NCBI GenBank assembly: GCA_012838545.1
Contig: DUPC01000007.1
Coordinates: forward strand, 1-43,012
Direction: 5' to 3'
DNA from: Acholeplasmataceae bacterium
GTDB taxonomy: Bacteria > Bacillota_I > Bacilli_A > ML615J-28 > CAG-313
Length of the DNA: 43,012 nt
The notes beneath the pieces were generated by a model that saw nothing but the letters and a program-made list of their open reading frames with translations, did no database searches and had not been told where the DNA came from. The position numbers were made by a program, and so were the translations under genes. This document shows, in pieces, positions 4,789 through 42,885 of this stretch. Position 1 is the stretch's first letter; every line of letters starts with the position of its first letter.

Positions 4789-5673
4789 ATGATTAGCGCA
4801 TCATTAGTTAAAGAATTAAGAGATAAAACCGGCGCGGGCATGATGGATTGCAAACGTGCCTTAACCGAAACCAATGGTGATATTGATAAAGCGATTGATT
4901 GGTTAAGAGAAAAAGGAATCTCTAAAGCTGAGAAGAAAGCCGATCGGATTGCTGCCGAAGGCTTAGCCGATATCGTAATTGAAAGCAACAATGCTTATAT
5001 CTATGAAGTCAATTCCGAAACCGACTTCGTTGCCAAAAACGAACAATTTCTACAATTGTTAAAAACACTTGGCGAGATTGCAATTAATGTTCAAGCAAAC
5101 GATGAACAAGATGTATTAAACGGTACCCTAAACGGTCAAACCGGACAAGAATATGTCATTAATGCCACCGCTACAATCGGTGAAAAAATCAGTTTAAGAC
5201 GTTTAACAAAAGTAACCAAGAATGACGATGAAGTCTTTGGAATTTATAAACACATGGGCGGTAAGATTGCGGTATTAAGCATTTTAACCGGAAAGGATGC
5301 GGAACTTGCCAAAGACATTTGCATGCACATCGCTGCAATGAAACCACGGTTCCTTGACCACACTCAAGTTCCGGCAGACGTAATTGAACATGAAAAACAC
5401 ATTTTAACCCAAGAAGCTTTGAATGAAGGCAAACCAATGGCTATCGTGGAAAAAATGGTCATTGGCCGGGTTAATAAATATTTAAAAGAAATTTGCTTAG
5501 TGGATCAACCATTTGTCAAAAACCAAGATGTAACTGTTGGTCAACATGTTAAGAATAACGGAAGCAGTATTCGCTCCTTTATCCGCTATGAAGTAGCAGA
5601 AGGAATGCAAAAACGCGTTGATAATTTTGCTGAAGAAGTTGCAGCTCAAGTTGAAGCAGCGCAAAAGAAATAA
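4789..5673 (+). CDS. tsf: Translation elongation factor Ts
   Basis: Guanine nucleotide exchange factor that recycles EF-Tu from GDP to GTP. The UBA-like N-terminal domain has VKELRDKTGAGMMDCKRAL. It is followed by the conserved KKADRIAAEGL segment and the EF-Tu-contacting TDFVAKNEQF motif (about residues 78-87). At 294 residues it is full length. Start ATG 4789 follows AAAGGAG. It lies 18 bases after rpsB and 29 bases before pyrH, in the same transcription unit. Confidence 0.97.
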   Translation: MISASLVKELRDKTGAGMMDCKRALTETNGDIDKAIDWLREKGISKAEKKADRIAAEGLADIVIESNNAYIYEVNSETDFVAKNEQFLQLLKTLGEIAINVQANDEQDVLNGTLNGQTGQEYVINATATIGEKISLRRLTKVTKNDDEVFGIYKHMGGKIAVLSILTGKDAELAKDICMHIAAMKPRFLDHTQVPADVIEHEKHILTQEALNEGKPMAIVEKMVIGRVNKYLKEICLVDQPFVKNQDVTVGQHVKNNGSSIRSFIRYEVAEGMQKRVDNFAEEVAAQVEAAQKK

Positions 5674-5702
5674 GTAAGCATTTCTGAAGGGAGGAGCGAT
5701 CC

Positions 5703-6407
5703 ATGAAAAGAATCATTCTAAAAATAAGCGGTGAAGCCTTATCAGGCGGGTCACAAATGGGAATATCGGCCGAAAGCGTTAAGCGCGTTGCCAAAGAAAT
5801 CAAGGCCATTCATGAAATCGGTTATCAAATCGGCGTCATTATCGGCGCAGGCAATATCTGGCGCGGACGGGATGCGGCGGACAACGGAATGGAGCGAGCA
5901 AGCGCGGATTATATGGGCATGCTGGGAACCATCCTTAATGCCTTAGCTCTCCAAAACGCTTTGGAAGCGATGAATGTACCGACCAGAACGATGACCTCGT
6001 TATCGATTCCGAGTGTTGCTGAACCTTACATTAGACGCAAAGCCATTTCGCATTTTGAAAAAGGCTATGTGGTTATTTTGGGTGGAGGAACAGGAAATCC
6101 TTTCTTCTCAACCGACACTGCAGCAGCTCTAAGAGCAGCCGAACTTGGTGCCCAAATGATTTTGATGGCGAAAAACGGCGTTGATGGGGTATATAATGCC
6201 AATCCTCACACCGACCTAAATGCTAAGCGCTATCGACACTTGACCTTTGATGAAATGCTTAACAAACACTTGCAAGTCATGGATCTGACTGCTGCAACCC
6301 TTTGTAGTGAAAACAATATCAATATTTTAGTGTTCGATATCAATGTTGAAGGAAATATCCAAAAAGCTCTTGCCGATCCTAGTATCGGAACATTAATTAC
6401 GAATTAG
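5703..6407 (+). CDS. pyrH: Uridylate kinase (UMP kinase)
   Basis: Phosphorylates UMP to UDP in pyrimidine nucleotide synthesis; the family is hexameric, of the amino-acid-kinase fold, and often regulated by GTP and UTP. Diagnostic segments are KISGEAL (phosphate loop), GAGNIWRGR, the ADYMGMLGTILNAL helix and LGGGTGNPFFSTDTAAALRA. The length of 234 residues is normal. Start ATG 5703 follows a strong GGGAGGAG site. frr begins 11 bases after its stop, the usual Bacillota order. Confidence 0.97.
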   Translation: MKRIILKISGEALSGGSQMGISAESVKRVAKEIKAIHEIGYQIGVIIGAGNIWRGRDAADNGMERASADYMGMLGTILNALALQNALEAMNVPTRTMTSLSIPSVAEPYIRRKAISHFEKGYVVILGGGTGNPFFSTDTAAALRAAELGAQMILMAKNGVDGVYNANPHTDLNAKRYRHLTFDEMLNKHLQVMDLTAATLCSENNINILVFDINVEGNIQKALADPSIGTLITN

Positions 6408-6418
6408 GAGGATACAAT

Positions 6419-6976
6419 ATGCCAAAACAAGTTATCAAACAAGGCGAAGACAGGATGTTAAAGACCATTGAAGCTACAAAAAAAGAATTTTCTTTAGTGC
6501 GGACCGGAAAAGCCAACCCCGCAATTCTTAATGTTATTTCCATCGATTACTATGGAGCGCCAATGCCATTAAACCAAATTGCGAGTATTTCCGTTCCAGA
6601 ACCACAAATGCTGATGGTAAAACCATATGACAAAAGCATTCTAAAACAAATTGAAAAAGCGATTCAAGTTGCCAATTTAGGTTTTAACCCTATCAATGAT
6701 GGCGAGGTAATTCGCATACCGATTTCACCGCTGACCGAACAAATTCGGAAAGATTTAGTCAAACAAGTTAAGAAATTAGCGGAAGAAAACAAGGTAGCCA
6801 TCCGTAACATTCGTCGCGATATTATTGATGAACTTAAGAAAATGGAAAAAGACTCTCTTATATCGGAGGATGTTTTGAAAAAGAGCACGGATGAAGTTCA
6901 AAAACTAACCGACAAATACATTGGTCAAATCGATCAATTAGCTAAAGAAAAAGAACAAATTATTTTGTCATTTTAA
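6419..6976 (+). CDS. frr: Ribosome recycling factor
   Basis: Splits post-termination ribosomes together with EF-G. The 185-residue, tRNA-shaped protein has the expected long-helix segments: LVRTGKANPAIL, the small second domain with DYYGAPMPLNQIA, and the C-terminal VRNIRRD-like helix (AIRNIRRDIIDELKK). It starts at ATG 6419 after TTAGGAGG. In most Bacillota uppS follows directly; here a 2-kb gene with its own promoter intervenes. No convincing terminator follows frr, so read-through into the next gene is possible. Confidence 0.97.
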   Translation: MPKQVIKQGEDRMLKTIEATKKEFSLVRTGKANPAILNVISIDYYGAPMPLNQIASISVPEPQMLMVKPYDKSILKQIEKAIQVANLGFNPINDGEVIRIPISPLTEQIRKDLVKQVKKLAEENKVAIRNIRRDIIDELKKMEKDSLISEDVLKKSTDEVQKLTDKYIGQIDQLAKEKEQIILSF

Positions 6977-7034
6977 CTAATGACATATGGGGGAAAACGT
7001 TGTATATGCACAAAGTGTACTGACAATGTTTTTC

Positions 7035-7063
7035 TTGGTTTAAACTAGTTTTTAGCGTATAAT
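7035..7063 (+). promoter_or_regulatory. Promoter of the TIR-like/LRR gene
   Basis: TTGGTT (7035-7040), 17-base spacer, TATAAT (7058-7063). It is 24 bases before the start codon, so the leader is short, with GGGGGTG as ribosome-binding site. Confidence 0.75.
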
Positions 7064-7086
7064 ACAATTGTGCTGGGGGTGAAAGA

Positions 7087-9117
7087 ATGGAAGAAAAAAT
7101 CCTGCACTGCCTAAAATGTGGAGGGGCAATGACTGTGAAAGAAAAACAGTCAATTGCCAATTGTTCTGATTGTGATGCTTTAAACCCGGTACCCCAAGGC
7201 ATTTATCAAGCCAATATCAAGAATGTCGATTGGCTGTTGGAACGATACAAGAAAGCCGTGGAGCATTTGAACTTGTATCAATTCCATAAAGCTTATAATA
7301 TTTATGATAAAATTGCCAAATCCCATTCTGATGGATATGCTTTTTGGGGCAAAGTTTTAGCTCAGTACGGAGCAATTTTTCATATTGACCAAAATCTTGC
7401 CAATCAATTGGTTATTTTAAGAACTCCTTGGGAACGTTTGGTTGATAACGAAAATTATCAAAAAGCTTTGTCGATTTTGGATAGTCAGGCTAGTGCTCTA
7501 ATCAAAAACGAAGCGATTCAAATGGAACGCCTTTGTCAAACAAATCGAGAAATCTTAATGCAAACCGAACCCATGGATGTTACGGTTTTGGTAAATGACG
7601 ATGAAAGTAATTCCAACAATCGCCAGGATTTAATTCAGGCTGAATTAATTAATAACTTTTTAGAAAACAATAATTTGAAAGTTAAATTTTTAAAAGGAAT
7701 TTGGTCAAAACAAACAATCGATCAATTAGAACTCACCATCCTTCCTTGTTTGGAACTATCCCCAGTTTTGATTGTCATAGATTCAAGTCCTGAAGGAAGC
7801 GAAAACCAATTACTTAAGAATACCTGGATTCGCTATCAAGGGCTCATGAAAAACGATACCGTTGAAAAAAGGCTGCTGATAAGCGTGGGAGATCCAAGCA
7901 TAAGCAAATCTTCGCAAGAGAATAGATTATATTTTCCGGAAATCAATGATGCCAACATGGCAGAAATTATCGAGTTGATTCAAGAGGTTTTAGCGCAAAT
8001 AATTAAGAAACCCGAACCTAAAAACGAAATCGTTAAAGGCTTAGGGGAAAAATTAAAAGTGCGTCAATTTGATCAAGCCAAAAATGAAATCAAACAAAAC
8101 ATCAATAAAGAACCTGACAATTATCAGCTTTGGTGGCTTTTCTTTTTGACAAAGCATCATGCATCCTCAGACGAAGAAATCAAACGTCAAGGGTTAAATT
8201 GCGAAAAAGATTATTACTTTCAAAAAGCGTATGAACTTGCGCCGATAGGTGTACGTCGATACTACTATACGATTCTTTCGGAATGCAAATCAAGAATTAC
8301 CCCAAGTCCGGAACAAATTTACGATCTGAAATTGGCCCAGTGCCAAGGGGAACTTTTTAAGTACCACGCGAAACGTTTGTGGAAACCCTTTATTGTTTTT
8401 TGGGTTTTAACGCTCTTTGCCTATTTAACTATATCGCTAAAATGGCTTCCGACCTTCCTTGGTTCCCTTGTCGTCTTTTTTGGTTGTTTTTTCTTCATTG
8501 TTTTGGAGTGCTATAAAGTAAACAAGTTGGGAAAAATTCCTAAAACTATTTCGGGTGAAGTAGCGATCAACAAATATTATCAATACTTAAAAGCCAATTT
8601 AACCCCTAATCAAAGTGCGGGATATTTGCCGTATCAACCATATCAACGCTTGCAAAAACGTTGGAAGGTTCTAATGGTGCTTTCGCTTGTGTTCTTTTTT
8701 GGTTTTGTTATCAAAGAAGTGTTTATTGCCTCCAAACATTGGAACTTACAATATACCTATACCTTTAACAATGTTGTGATAATGGGCGGAACCGGCGAGG
8801 AAATTGTCATACCTTCGACCATCGGAAACCGAAACGTAACGCGAGTGGCTTCCCATGCTTTTTATGGCGACTCCAAAATCAGAGGCGTCTTTATTGGTGA
8901 AGGAGTTCGCGAATTGGGTAATGAAGCCTTTGCCTACTGCAAAAATCTCCGCAGAATCGATCTTCCCGCTACCCTAAGAAAAGTGGGGGAAGATGCTCCG
9001 TTTTATGAATGTAACGATTCCGTTTTACTTTATAATCCAACCGAATTATATTTATCGGAATTATTCGGCGTCGGTTATGACGAATGGATTATCTCAATCG
9101 AAGTAAAGACCGAATAA
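7087..9117 (+). CDS. Membrane protein: zinc ribbon, TPR-like, TIR-like and BspA-type LRR
   Basis: A 676-residue protein of unknown function. Visible order: zinc ribbon (C8, C11, C26, C29); helical-repeat region about 45-150; TIR-like alpha/beta domain about 163-300; a second helical-repeat region about 310-405; a hydrophobic hairpin about 434-476; a basic loop; a third span about 528-548; and a tail (about 555-640) resembling BspA-type LRR_5, with IVIPSTIG, VASHAFYG and LGNEAFAYCKNLRRIDLP. Charge distribution puts the N-terminus and TIR-like part inside and the LRR tail outside. I recall Bacillota proteins with a zinc ribbon, helical repeats and a TIR domain whose helix reads like YEPYIFAAL. 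Here QLELTILPCLEL fits that position, placing E215 where TIR NADases have the catalytic Glu. The usual FICYKE start is replaced by VTVLVNDDES, so activity is uncertain. It has its own promoter and terminator and sits between frr and uppS, normally adjacent genes. Confidence 0.75.
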   Translation: MEEKILHCLKCGGAMTVKEKQSIANCSDCDALNPVPQGIYQANIKNVDWLLERYKKAVEHLNLYQFHKAYNIYDKIAKSHSDGYAFWGKVLAQYGAIFHIDQNLANQLVILRTPWERLVDNENYQKALSILDSQASALIKNEAIQMERLCQTNREILMQTEPMDVTVLVNDDESNSNNRQDLIQAELINNFLENNNLKVKFLKGIWSKQTIDQLELTILPCLELSPVLIVIDSSPEGSENQLLKNTWIRYQGLMKNDTVEKRLLISVGDPSISKSSQENRLYFPEINDANMAEIIELIQEVLAQIIKKPEPKNEIVKGLGEKLKVRQFDQAKNEIKQNINKEPDNYQLWWLFFLTKHHASSDEEIKRQGLNCEKDYYFQKAYELAPIGVRRYYYTILSECKSRITPSPEQIYDLKLAQCQGELFKYHAKRLWKPFIVFWVLTLFAYLTISLKWLPTFLGSLVVFFGCFFFIVLECYKVNKLGKIPKTISGEVAINKYYQYLKANLTPNQSAGYLPYQPYQRLQKRWKVLMVLSLVFFFGFVIKEVFIASKHWNLQYTYTFNNVVIMGGTGEEIVIPSTIGNRNVTRVASHAFYGDSKIRGVFIGEGVRELGNEAFAYCKNLRRIDLPATLRKVGEDAPFYECNDSVLLYNPTELYLSELFGVGYDEWIISIEVKTE

Positions 9118-9120
9118 AGA

Positions 9121-9147
9121 AAAACGTGCTCATCGGGCGCGTTTTTT
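9121..9147 (+). terminator. Rho-independent terminator after the TIR-like/LRR gene
   Basis: Stem AACGTGC/GCGCGTT (7 bp, one G-T), 7-base loop, then six T. It isolates the inserted gene from uppS. Confidence 0.8.
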
Positions 9148-9230: not shown

Positions 9231-9980
9231 ATGAGTTTAGACTTAAAAAAGGCGGGTTTGGAACAAGCTAAACTACCCAAGCATATTGCCATTATTATGG
9301 ATGGCAACGGCAGGTGGGCCCAAAAAAGAGGACTACCTCGCTATTTGGGCCATCAACAAGGGATGCGTGCTTTGGGGAAAGTTGTGGAAACCGCATTTGA
9401 TTTACAAATTCCCTGCTTAACGGTTTTTGCTTTCAGCACCGAAAATTGGAATCGACCTCAAGACGAAATTGATTATATAATGACGCAAATCGTTAAACAG
9501 TTTGACCGGTATGCCAAGGAACTTTCAAAAAAGAACATTCGGGTCAAAGTAATTGGCGAACAAGCGCATTTAAGTGCTGATGTTAAAAACGTCATTGAAA
9601 AGGTTCAAGAACTGACCAAAAACAACACTCAAATGACTTTGGTTGTTGCTTTCAATTACGGGAGTAAGCTTGAACTTACGAACGCTTGTCAAAAGATAGC
9701 CTCTCTTGTGCAGGCAAAAAAAATAAAAATTGAGGATATTACGCCAGAAGTGATTGAGGAGAACTTATATACTTTTGCTTTGCCGCCCGTCGATTTATTG
9801 ATTCGTACCAGCGGAGAAATGCGAATAAGCAATTTTCTTTTATGGCAGTTGGCCTATTCGGAACTTTATTTTACCGATACATATTGGCCTGATTTTAATC
9901 AAAATTCTTTAATTGAAGCGTTGAAGGTCTATTCTTTAAGAAAACGGCGCTTCGGGAAAATTGGTGAACAAAATGAATAA
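9231..9980 (+). CDS. uppS: Isoprenyl transferase (undecaprenyl diphosphate synthase)
   Basis: Cis-prenyltransferase that makes C55 undecaprenyl diphosphate, the lipid carrier for cell-wall and surface glycan precursors, from FPP and IPP. Diagnostic motifs: IIMDGNGRWAQKRG with catalytic D24, FAFSTENWNRP, and LLIRTSGEMRISNFLLWQ with the downstream SELYFTD. The length of 249 residues is typical. It starts at ATG 9231 after GAGG. Its stop overlaps the cdsA start by 8 bases (ATGAATAA). Confidence 0.96.
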   Translation: MSLDLKKAGLEQAKLPKHIAIIMDGNGRWAQKRGLPRYLGHQQGMRALGKVVETAFDLQIPCLTVFAFSTENWNRPQDEIDYIMTQIVKQFDRYAKELSKKNIRVKVIGEQAHLSADVKNVIEKVQELTKNNTQMTLVVAFNYGSKLELTNACQKIASLVQAKKIKIEDITPEVIEENLYTFALPPVDLLIRTSGEMRISNFLLWQLAYSELYFTDTYWPDFNQNSLIEALKVYSLRKRRFGKIGEQNE

Positions 9981-15283: not shown

Positions 15284-15309
15284 AGATTATCTATTGGAGG
15301 TTGGACATC

Positions 15310-16215
15310 ATGTTTTTGACTCAACAAGTAGTCGAAATAGGTAATTTCTATTATTTTTTCTATCTGTGCTTATTTATTGTTCTATCGGTCGGATTATCGT
15401 TAATTCTTCCCAACGCAAGTCCTAAAACGCAAAGAATCGTAATTGCTTCAATCCTAGGGGTCAATTTTGCTTTGCATTTCTTGAAACTGTTATTCCCGCC
15501 TTATTCGGAATATTTTCCGATTTCCATCAAAGAAAGTTCATTCCAAAACATTTGCGCGGTTAACACGATTATTTTTCCTTTCATCTATTGGAAGAAAAAA
15601 GAGGTTTTGTTGGACTACATGGTTTATGTGGGCTTAATCAGCGGTGTAAGTGCCATTTTTCTTCCCACCGAAGCCCTAGGGGAAGCACCGTTTGTTTTTG
15701 ATACGATTCGTTTTTATTATTGTCATATGGCAGTAGCTATAGCTCCATTATTGATGGTGGTCACGAAAATTCACCGGGTAAACTACCACCGCATTTGGAA
15801 AGTGCCGTTTGTTTTGTTGATTGTTTTATGTATCATAATTCTTAATGAAGTCATGATGATGGAACTGGGATTTGTCAGTTTACGGAATGGTGATTTACTC
15901 CATCCCAATTATCGCAATCCTTCCCTTGTTTTTGGTCCGCCTAAGGAAATAGAAGGCACAGCCTTGTTGAAATTTATTCTTATGTGGACCCCGAAAGTGT
16001 TTATGGCAATTCCGGTCGGCGAAATGGCGGGACAAACCAAGTATTGGCCAATTCTCTGGGTAGCATTCCCTCTATATGTATTTTTTTGCTTATTATCCTT
16101 CTTCATTAGTCTTTGGCTTGACCCGATGCATTTTGTCCATGATATGCAAACTGCATTTAATAAGTTGAAGGTTAAATGGCATAAAATGCTTAAAATTGTG
16201 GAACAAGAAGAGTAA
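15310..16215 (+). CDS. YwaF/TMEM164-like integral membrane protein
   Basis: A 301-residue membrane protein with about seven hydrophobic spans. It resembles the YwaF family (TIGR02206-like, related to eukaryotic TMEM164). The conserved features are a polar motif in the third span region (FQNICAVNTIIFPF) and an FYYCHMAVAIAPLLMV span with a central His. It is longer than YwaF (about 235), partly through a loop around residues 190-230. The ORF-track start is a TTG at 15301 that touches the ribosome-binding site; ATG 15310 lies nine bases after GGAGG and is preferred. It is monocistronic. The bacterial role is unknown; TMEM164 has been linked to acyl transfer on phospholipids, which is only a hint. 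Confidence 0.75.
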   Translation: MFLTQQVVEIGNFYYFFYLCLFIVLSVGLSLILPNASPKTQRIVIASILGVNFALHFLKLLFPPYSEYFPISIKESSFQNICAVNTIIFPFIYWKKKEVLLDYMVYVGLISGVSAIFLPTEALGEAPFVFDTIRFYYCHMAVAIAPLLMVVTKIHRVNYHRIWKVPFVLLIVLCIIILNEVMMMELGFVSLRNGDLLHPNYRNPSLVFGPPKEIEGTALLKFILMWTPKVFMAIPVGEMAGQTKYWPILWVAFPLYVFFCLLSFFISLWLDPMHFVHDMQTAFNKLKVKWHKMLKIVEQEE

Positions 16216-40443: not shown

Positions 40444-42885
40444 ATGAAAAAGATAGTAAAATTAGTCGCCCTTTGTTCGCTAGTGCTTATATTTGGCACT
40501 TTGCTTTCTTGTCAACAAACCGGTCAATTTTTTACGGTTAAATTTTTTGACGGCGATAATAATTTAATCGATACCCAACGCGTCAAAAAGGGCAGTAGCG
40601 CCCAAGCACCCCAAGATCCGATTAAAGAAGGGTATACCTTTATTGGATGGAGCGAAGACTTTAGTTCGGTAACGAAGAACCTGGATCTTTATCCGATGTT
40701 CGATGAAATAAAAGAATTTTTTGATGTTTTCTTTTTGGATGAAGCAGAAAACGTTTTGCGTAGAGAAATTGTTTTAAAAGGCAATGGCGCCACAGCGCCG
40801 ATCCCCCCGGAAAAACGGGGTTATAAGTTTGTCGGCTGGGATACAGACTTTTCCTATGTTACGGAAAACACTTATGTCAGACCACTTTACGAAAAAGAAA
40901 ACATCGATATTGAATTGGGTGATTATGTGAAGTATGTTGAAAGCATCAGCCATAACGATATTACTGATTCAAATGTTTTGCTTGCTTCTTTGGATTTAAC
41001 GCATTCCCTTTATACCTTCACCAATATTTTTATTGGCGGTTTTAGAAATGCGAATCAGATGCATTATTACGATGCCCAAAGCTATCAAGGTCGCAACGCT
41101 TACGGATATGAAGTGGGGGTTGCGTCAAACGGTATTGTAGTATCCGCCGGAACGCTTGTGGATTTACCGGAAGGCGGGTTTATCCTTTCTGGACACTCCT
41201 CAACCGCAACCCTCCTTCAATCCAAAGTGCAAATCGGCGACTATGTCGTTTTCCATCGGGATAGTTTGACGGTAAAAGGACATCGGGATACGGTTCTTTC
41301 GAAGTTGATAGGTTTAAACGTTAAGATAAACGAAACCATTTTGAAAACCCAAAATGCTTATTATTCCGAATTCCGAGCCCTCAACTACGAAAAGATTTTG
41401 GAAAAAATCAATTCCGCCATTGATACTTATAACGATTTGGTTGCTAACCCGAATGAATATTCTGCCAGCATTGCAAAAGAAGTAGAAAATACTTTATTGC
41501 TTGTTGACTTCTTGCTTGTGGAAACGAACCCTATTGAAACCAAGGCTTTCTGGCATTATCCGCTTCGTTCGGGCGATTATGAGGAAAGAAATCTTTCAGA
41601 AGTTGAGGAACTCTTAGATGACGTAAAAGCACTGGGCTTTAACAAGGTATATCTCAACGTCACCTTTGGCGGCCATGCGATTTACCCTTCGGATTATTTG
41701 CCACAGCGCCATTCGGACGGAAAAGTATATACCGGCTATAAAGATTATCTTGAATGCTTTGTGGAAGAAGCGCATAAACGGGGTATTGAAGTATCCGCTT
41801 GGACCAATACCTTAATCTGCGGGGACGGTTGGTTGCCTGCTGTTTATAAAGACAGAGGTTGGGTTTTAACCGGTTTTAACGGCGAAGACAATTTCAACGG
41901 AATGTACTTCTTGGATATTTCCCGTTCGGATGTTCAGGAATTCTTGATTAATGTCTTTACCGAATTGGTTGCCAATTATAATTTGGATGGTGTAGAGTTT
42001 GATTTTATCCGTTTCCCAGGGGGAAATCTATACAGTTATGATGGCGTAATCGCCAATCCGGCAGGGATTAAAGACGGCGGTTATACCGACAGTTTCATTA
42101 ATTTATTCAAAACCACCACGGGTTTTTCTGGTGACGTCAAACAATCGCTCATTCAATCCAAAACTTTTCGAAATCAGTGGTTGCAATTTAAGGGAGATTT
42201 GTTAAATGGTTTAGTGGAAAACTTGGTTACCGAAATGCGTAAAATAAAACCAAATATCTCTTTTTCCGGAGCTATTATGCCTAGCATATCTTCCGCAATC
42301 AATGTATATCAACAAAATTGGGATTTATGGCTCGACAATGGTTGGCTGGATACCCTTGAACCGATGATTTATAGCGGCGATACTGGGTCCGTCATGTCAA
42401 CTTTAGCATCATTTTACCAAAAGGTAAACGGTCGGGCGGATATTGTTGTCGGTTTGTTCCCAGAGGGTAACGGAGGGTTGCCGGGGTTGAATGCGGAGCA
42501 GATTTACAGCGTAATTTCTGCTTATCCGGTCGGTTGGTGCAAGTTCTCCGCAAAAACCATATTTTCCAACCGTGGGTTAATGGATGGTTTCAGCGTCATG
42601 AAGCGCGACTATACGGTTTCTATGACCTCCTCAAAACAAGACAAATTATTGGCTTATATTTTGCAATTGAGGGAAAATGTTAAAGAATTCTATCAATATG
42701 TTGATACCGGCACAGATTATTCGGCAATGATAGCTTATTTGGAAAGCATAACCGAAATTACCGAGGAAACCTATATTACAGGTGTGCTGGAGCAAATTTT
42801 ACTTTATATTGATCAAATCAATCATCTGGGTATAAAAGAGAAATTATACGACAAACATCAAATAATTGCGGCATTAATGAAGTAG
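40444..42885 (+). CDS. Surface lipoprotein with InlB-type B repeats and a GHL10 glycosidase-like domain
   Basis: An 813-residue secreted lipoprotein. The signal peptide ends at the lipobox GTLLSC with lipidated C23. Two Listeria-Bacteroides (InlB B, Flg_new) repeats follow at about 30-88 and 93-150 (EGYTFIGWSEDF, RGYKFVGWDTDF). A middle domain (about 160-300) contains GYEVGVASNGIVVSAG and LSGHSSTATLL. The GHL10/DUF187-type TIM-barrel (about 365-720) has GFNKVYLNVTFGGHAIYPS, EAHKRGIEVSAWTNT, FLDISRSDVQEF and NLDGVEFDFIRFPGG, in which the D/E-rich strand is the likely catalytic face. A helical C-terminal tail follows. Role: probably surface glycan processing; the substrate is unknown. Start ATG 40444 is about 10 bases after AAGGAGAG. 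It is transcribed alone from its own promoter. Confidence 0.87.
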   Translation: MKKIVKLVALCSLVLIFGTLLSCQQTGQFFTVKFFDGDNNLIDTQRVKKGSSAQAPQDPIKEGYTFIGWSEDFSSVTKNLDLYPMFDEIKEFFDVFFLDEAENVLRREIVLKGNGATAPIPPEKRGYKFVGWDTDFSYVTENTYVRPLYEKENIDIELGDYVKYVESISHNDITDSNVLLASLDLTHSLYTFTNIFIGGFRNANQMHYYDAQSYQGRNAYGYEVGVASNGIVVSAGTLVDLPEGGFILSGHSSTATLLQSKVQIGDYVVFHRDSLTVKGHRDTVLSKLIGLNVKINETILKTQNAYYSEFRALNYEKILEKINSAIDTYNDLVANPNEYSASIAKEVENTLLLVDFLLVETNPIETKAFWHYPLRSGDYEERNLSEVEELLDDVKALGFNKVYLNVTFGGHAIYPSDYLPQRHSDGKVYTGYKDYLECFVEEAHKRGIEVSAWTNTLICGDGWLPAVYKDRGWVLTGFNGEDNFNGMYFLDISRSDVQEFLINVFTELVANYNLDGVEFDFIRFPGGNLYSYDGVIANPAGIKDGGYTDSFINLFKTTTGFSGDVKQSLIQSKTFRNQWLQFKGDLLNGLVENLVTEMRKIKPNISFSGAIMPSISSAINVYQQNWDLWLDNGWLDTLEPMIYSGDTGSVMSTLASFYQKVNGRADIVVGLFPEGNGGLPGLNAEQIYSVISAYPVGWCKFSAKTIFSNRGLMDGFSVMKRDYTVSMTSSKQDKLLAYILQLRENVKEFYQYVDTGTDYSAMIAYLESITEITEETYITGVLEQILLYIDQINHLGIKEKLYDKHQIIAALMK

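Follow-up and report, generated by a model that had tools for sequence, protein, structure and literature searches.

Organization of the gene X locus

The ORF studied here (hereafter named gene X) is located on the forward strand of the window, that is, the whole stretch of 43,012 nucleotides that was analysed, and is flanked by frr on one side and uppS on the other, with pyrH upstream (Table 1). Its ATG start codon is preceded by the ribosome-binding site GGGGGTGA. The exact TTGGTT/TATAAT pair recognized upstream of the gene was not listed by the promoter scanner because its -35 box matches the consensus at three of six positions. As for the hairpin found at the 3' end, terminator-like sites were overall not rarer in shuffled sequence, and both the promoter-like and the terminator-like signals are consensus matches rather than proof of function. 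Since the gene has its own ribosome-binding site together with these two signals, it appears to form a one-gene transcription unit, and it looks like a solo gene set into a housekeeping cluster. The GC content and codon usage of gene X are ordinary compared with those of the window. Elsewhere in the window, one ORF (15301-16215) matched Pfam TMEM164 (2.1e-9), and another (40444-42885) encodes a protein resembling glycosyl hydrolases (GHL10), in which an InlB-type (Flg_new) repeat lies close to the N-terminus.

Table 1. Position of gene X, its flanking elements and encoded domains, and of one related gene
Feature	Position	Strand	Description or evidence
frr	6419-6976		flanking gene
Promoter-like element	7035..7063	+	TTGGTT-N17-TATAAT, upstream of X; read by eye, consensus match
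Gene X	7087..9117	+	ORF call; 676-aa zinc ribbon-TPR-pseudoTIR-helical-TM-LRR protein
Zinc ribbon	7099..7188	+	residues 5-34; C8, C11, C26, C29 (CxxC..CxxC)
TPR-like helices	7198..7563	+	residues 38-159; AF2 helices; Pfam TPR in relatives at the same place
Degenerate TIR domain	7567..7995	+	residues 161-303; alignment, profile-profile match, AlphaFold model, Foldseek
Second helical (TPR-like) domain	8026..8298	+	residues 314-404; AF2 helices; L041 BLAST alignment reaches residue 413
Membrane spans 1 and 2, close together	8377..8511	+	residues 431-475; hydropathy; both orthologs alike
Membrane span 3	8671..8727	+	residues 529-547; hydropathy
Three BspA-type LRRs, predicted extracytoplasmic	8797..9021	+	residues 571-645; LRR_5, Foldseek; repeats counted by eye
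Intrinsic-terminator-like hairpin	9119..9147	+	directly after the X stop codon; 13 pairs, then T-rich tail
uppS	9231-9980		flanking gene
L044 TIR protein	5018-7645 (locus L044)		example of the SPFH-linked zinc ribbon-TPR-TIR-TM family

Domain architecture and predicted topology of protein X

A preliminary description of this DNA had read a zinc ribbon, a TIR-like domain, membrane spans and an LRR tail, in this order, into the ORF. This order was borne out by a Pfam LRR_5 match, by the zinc-ribbon cysteines, which are invariant among the aligned relatives, by the homology of the TIR-like part and by hydropathy. The ribbon itself gave a weak Pfam match (A2L_zn_ribbon, 0.023). The AF2 models of the protein, built with 5 sequences, were moderate (pLDDT 73-75).

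The tail of X belongs to the BspA-type LRR proteins according to Pfam, with LRR_5 at residues 583-642 (1.6e-8; 35 bits, the gathering score being 27.7). Foldseek superimposed it on the Treponema pallidum protein TpLRR (6mlx) with a probability of 1.0 and an rmsd of 1.5 Å over about 80 columns. Whether this segment is long enough to form a solenoid had been left in doubt: the model matches the LRR fold, and with about three repeats the segment is a short cap, not a long solenoid. Positive residues flank the membrane spans, and the loop joining spans 2 and 3 is rich in K/R, as expected of an N-in, loop-in, LRR-out arrangement. From hydropathy and charge (positive-inside rule), the N-terminus and the TIR-like part are predicted to lie inside and the LRR outside, as had been proposed, and the predicted topology, along with the domain order, supports the reading of X as a receptor-like chain.

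The central region is related to TIR domains

One important question is whether residues 161-303 are a TIR domain. No TIR match was obtained for X itself by direct Pfam scan, and the NCBIfam and PADLOC scans of X returned no TIR or defence family (PADLOC, 0 families). However, residues 6-413 of X aligned by BLAST (E 4e-23) with the protein of locus L041, which contains Pfam TIR_2 (6e-12), and this homology extends over the ribbon, the TPR-like helices, the TIR and the second helical domain. Profile-profile comparison (hhalign) of the three X-type TIR regions with ten related TIRs gave a probability of 96.6 and an E-value of 5.5e-10, and the related TIRs in turn match solved TIR structures, including those of TLR, TIR-STING and AbTIR.

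Foldseek searches with the full-length model were diluted, the LRR matches being dominant. Hence, the TIR part was modelled alone, which gave a pLDDT of 73, a pTM of 0.73 and strands and helices alternating as in TIR. With this model TIRs appeared among the top matches, in keeping with the fold that had been anticipated, although the E-values were weak and other flavodoxin-like folds were mixed in. Fold comparison by itself is not decisive for this reason, and the decision falls to sequence kinship. The top match was a response-regulator receiver domain (2b4a), an identity that was rejected in favour of TIR on sequence homology. On this kinship, the region is assigned to the TIR domain superfamily.

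Orthologs and selection

A single other genus of the family (g5) yielded orthologs of X, in the metagenome-assembled genomes L016 (goat colon) and L017 (sheep colon), and both copies also sit directly behind frr. The ORF is intact in the three species, whose frr genes are 66-68% identical to that of the window. The orthologs are about 30% identical to X, whereas tsf, pyrH and frr reach 60-71%. No copy behind frr and no full-length X elsewhere was present in the other 12 family genomes searched, 3 of which encode one of the related TIR proteins. In a tree of tsf-pyrH-frr, the X-less genera g3 and g4 fall among the X-bearing ones, so that one gain followed by two losses is the simplest history, and X was apparently lost twice. 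On the basis of this tree, the idea that X was gained once, within a clade of g1 and g5, was rejected, and two insertions at the same site fit less well than one gain and two losses. In the tree of the N-terminal half, the three X proteins group together on long branches and the source relative is not indicated.

The dN/dS ratio of the whole gene between L016 and L017 was 0.31, a value that, like those of the separate regions, is approximate because dS is near 1. By region, it was about 0.13-0.14 in the ribbon and TPR-like helices, the best conserved parts of X (lowest dN), and rose to 0.39-0.48 across the TIR, the second helical domain and the membrane region. Together with the low identity of the X proteins, these ratios indicate that X evolves fast yet under purifying selection, as a selected and functional gene, and that its TIR-like part is only loosely constrained. 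The ratios also bear on the idea that X chiefly serves for adhesion at the surface or for binding the cell wall, with the LRR tail as the working part and the cytoplasmic half as no more than an anchor. BspA-type LRRs are common among bacterial surface proteins, and X matches TpLRR and other surface LRR proteins; however, the ectodomain holds just three repeats in about 125 amino acids, and constraint is strongest on the cytoplasmic ribbon and TPR-like helices, which makes such a role very unlikely.

Loss of the NADase motif

The catalytic glutamate of TIR NADases is carried by the WxxxE motif of helix C. All 15 of the other TIRs in the alignment keep this motif. The three X proteins have lost it, its position being occupied by L242-LKN-T246 in X and by V-FRH-I and L-FRH-A in the orthologs. 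No acidic residue of that helix is conserved across the three proteins, and erosion extends to the motifs of the first strand and the BB loop. Since the motif is missing from X and both orthologs and all 15 other TIRs retain it, NADase activity of X is not expected, and the suggestion that X might be an NAD-consuming effector is not supported. Judged from the alignment, X lacks the catalytic glutamate that defines TIR NADase effectors, and probably serves instead as a scaffold or receptor with a pseudo-TIR.

The TIR of X could in principle employ other catalytic residues. X would then still act as an effector in defence, with TIR NADase or cyclase activity triggered via its LRR tail, as might be expected from its kinship with TIR proteins that have an intact WxxxE and from the common use of bacterial TIRs as defence effectors (e.g. 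SpbK). This is improbable: both the W and the E are replaced in all three orthologous proteins with no acidic residue conserved nearby in the helix, the other two motifs are eroded, the TIR region is far less constrained than the ribbon and TPR-like helices, and the gene lies outside any defence neighbourhood.

Motif loss, the absence of X from two related genera and its fast evolution (30% identity in a setting of 60-71%) would also be expected of a decaying, functionless relic of an immune gene. We regard this as the least credible explanation, being largely refuted by the dN/dS of 0.31 and by the full-length ORF conserved in three species across a deep divergence; in addition, all zinc ligands are kept and the gene has its own ribosome-binding site and promoter-like and terminator-like signals.

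A wider family of SPFH-linked TIR proteins

Relatives of X were collected through class and phylum searches and a scan of viral contigs. Thirteen relatives with a zinc ribbon-TPR-TIR N-terminus (L018 and L041-L052) were read in their genomic context, and hydropathy revealed membrane spans after the TIR part in every one of them. The tails are swappable: some relatives have none, others several membrane spans, an LRR (L044), InlB-type repeats plus LRR (L042, L047) or DUF6273 (L018). X had been described as a chain of a kind not seen elsewhere; L042, L044 and L047 display the same zinc ribbon-TPR-TIR-TM-LRR order; their TIR motifs are intact and their ectodomains longer, so the claim of an unseen architecture can be upheld only by including the wider family in the discovery. 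No dedicated family for these SPFH-linked proteins was found in Pfam, NCBIfam or PADLOC. PADLOC and NCBIfam had no family for the TIR proteins of the relatives, apart from one weak Thoeris type III match (PADLOC, 0 families for the L044 protein), and no published description was found in the open-access literature.

An SPFH gene, recognized by shared BLAST similarity, lies nearby in 12 of the 13 relatives, with Pfam Band_7_1 confirmed for those of L044 (3.5e-39) and L018, and in most main-group relatives it is accompanied by a gene for a membrane protein of about 235 amino acids. In L042-L048 and L018, the arrangement is operon-like: an SPFH gene (Band_7_1 type), usually the ~235-aa membrane protein, and a zinc ribbon-TPR-TIR-TM protein with WxxxE and a variable ectodomain. 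In L049-L052, a divergent f7 TIR protein ending in several membrane spans occurs with an SPFH gene, and small charged coiled-coil-like ORFs were seen by eye between both genes in L049, L051 and L052. Thus, the relatives are normally encoded with SPFH and further membrane or coiled-coil-like proteins, and not as the single sensor/effector chain that had been taken as the unit of the system.

The viral-contig scans returned only two relatives, L018/L121 (one contig) and the partial L112, and the TIR protein of the relatives was not found in the phage and plasmid collections (E 1e-10). In L018 (IMGVR_UViG_3300031555_010668, a viral-class contig), the SPFH-TM-TIR operon follows lysozyme-like and recombinase-like ORFs identified by eye, and may lie at the edge of a prophage.

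By its sequence, X has the order of this family (zinc ribbon, TPR-like helices, TIR, TM). The nearby SPFH gene is missing: the neighbours of X are frr and uppS. The single SPFH and zinc-ribbon gene pair of the window genome is on another contig, and a search of this genome for the ~235-aa partner, run without a positive control, gave no match. X is a degenerate, relocated member of a patchy family of zinc ribbon-TPR-TIR-TM proteins of Bacilli, and the wider family, rather than X, is the most interesting object.

The SPFH protein YdjI of Bacillus subtilis joins PspA to the membrane with YdjG/H in a membrane-stress complex (PMC8581546). This role of YdjI makes envelope sensing the readiest guess as to what the family does. 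Like the SPFH partner of the family, YdjI belongs to the Band_7_1 type and has zinc ribbons, and YdjG, too, is a membrane protein with a zinc ribbon, whereas the YdjFGHI system (PspA, YdjG, YdjH and YdjI) has no TIR and X has no linked SPFH. It could be argued that X is an accessory regulator of a YdjI/YdjG-type SPFH stress complex of its genome, replacing the adjacent SPFH of the relatives. The genomic tie of the relatives to SPFH proteins, the pair retained elsewhere in the window genome and the joint action of YdjI, YdjG/H and PspA in B. subtilis (PMC8581546) speak for it; but the SPFH gene is also present in the X-less relatives G006 and G007, so that there is no co-occurrence, and the pair is not linked to X. 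We consider this role unlikely, though the least so of the alternatives to a scaffold or receptor, and the pair, which lies on another contig and whose SPFH gene is found also where X is missing, is a candidate partner.

Proposed role of X and comparison with known systems

The explanation that we favour, and hold to be fairly likely, is that X is a membrane-anchored pseudo-TIR scaffold or receptor derived from the SPFH-associated TIR family, which would report the state of the envelope by assembly. The zinc ribbon, TPR-like helices and TIR-like domain would form a cytoplasmic protein-interaction platform, tethered by the three membrane spans, with the small LRR cap facing the cell wall. The ancestral SPFH-associated, membrane-tethered TIR proteins, which keep the NADase motif, may be triggered via a membrane complex. 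In the lineage of X the catalytic motif would have disappeared from the TIR, and the gene would have come to lie behind frr as a separate transcription unit; X would now most likely sense or report the envelope state through regulated assembly with some partner, and not by consuming NAD.

The closest systems are the SPFH-linked proteins of Bacilli, such as L042, L044 and L047. Like X, they start with a zinc ribbon, followed by TPR-like helices, the TIR, further helices and TM, and several of them have LRR ectodomains. These relatives keep WxxxE and a nearby SPFH gene, whereas X lacks the motif and has three membrane spans, a very short LRR and a solo locus. The TIRs of AbTir, SpbK and Thoeris ThsB, which are bacterial TIR NADase effectors, are homologous to those of the X family; X differs from them in lacking the catalytic glutamate, in being membrane-bound and in having an ectodomain. 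As in the Toll-like receptors of animals, the TIR of X would be inside and the LRR outside, with the membrane between. However, Toll-like receptors have an N-terminal LRR, one membrane span and a C-terminal TIR, whereas X has three spans and the reversed order, a reversal already pointed out in the preliminary description. X also differs in its BspA-type LRR and in the extra zinc ribbon and TPR-like helices, and there is no sign of common descent of the architecture.

More tentatively, and with odds somewhat against it, X could have branched off from a bacterial receptor system not yet described, an analogue of the Toll-like receptors with the domain order reversed. At the core of that system would be a zinc ribbon-TPR-TIR enzyme that is tethered to the membrane and acts together with a small membrane protein and an SPFH scaffold; its ectodomain could be exchanged for another (LRR, InlB-type stalk plus LRR, DUF6273) or be absent. 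In the lineage of X it would have been domesticated as an envelope receptor devoid of enzyme activity. Should the family function in the way its domain layout implies, there are transmembrane TIR receptors in bacteria whose LRR ectodomains can be swapped and which are coupled to SPFH membrane scaffolds, and the TIR-LRR membrane logic would then have arisen more than once. X, as a natural loss-of-catalysis variant, would make it possible to ask whether the zinc ribbon-TPR-TIR platform serves a purpose independent of NAD cleavage.

A partial resemblance to X was observed in L055 (944-8913), where four tandem ORFs combine a short helical start, similar to residues ~326-393 of X, with long BspA LRR arrays. 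No membrane spans were seen by eye in these proteins, and a large helicase-like ORF follows them, in what is possibly a defence-type island.
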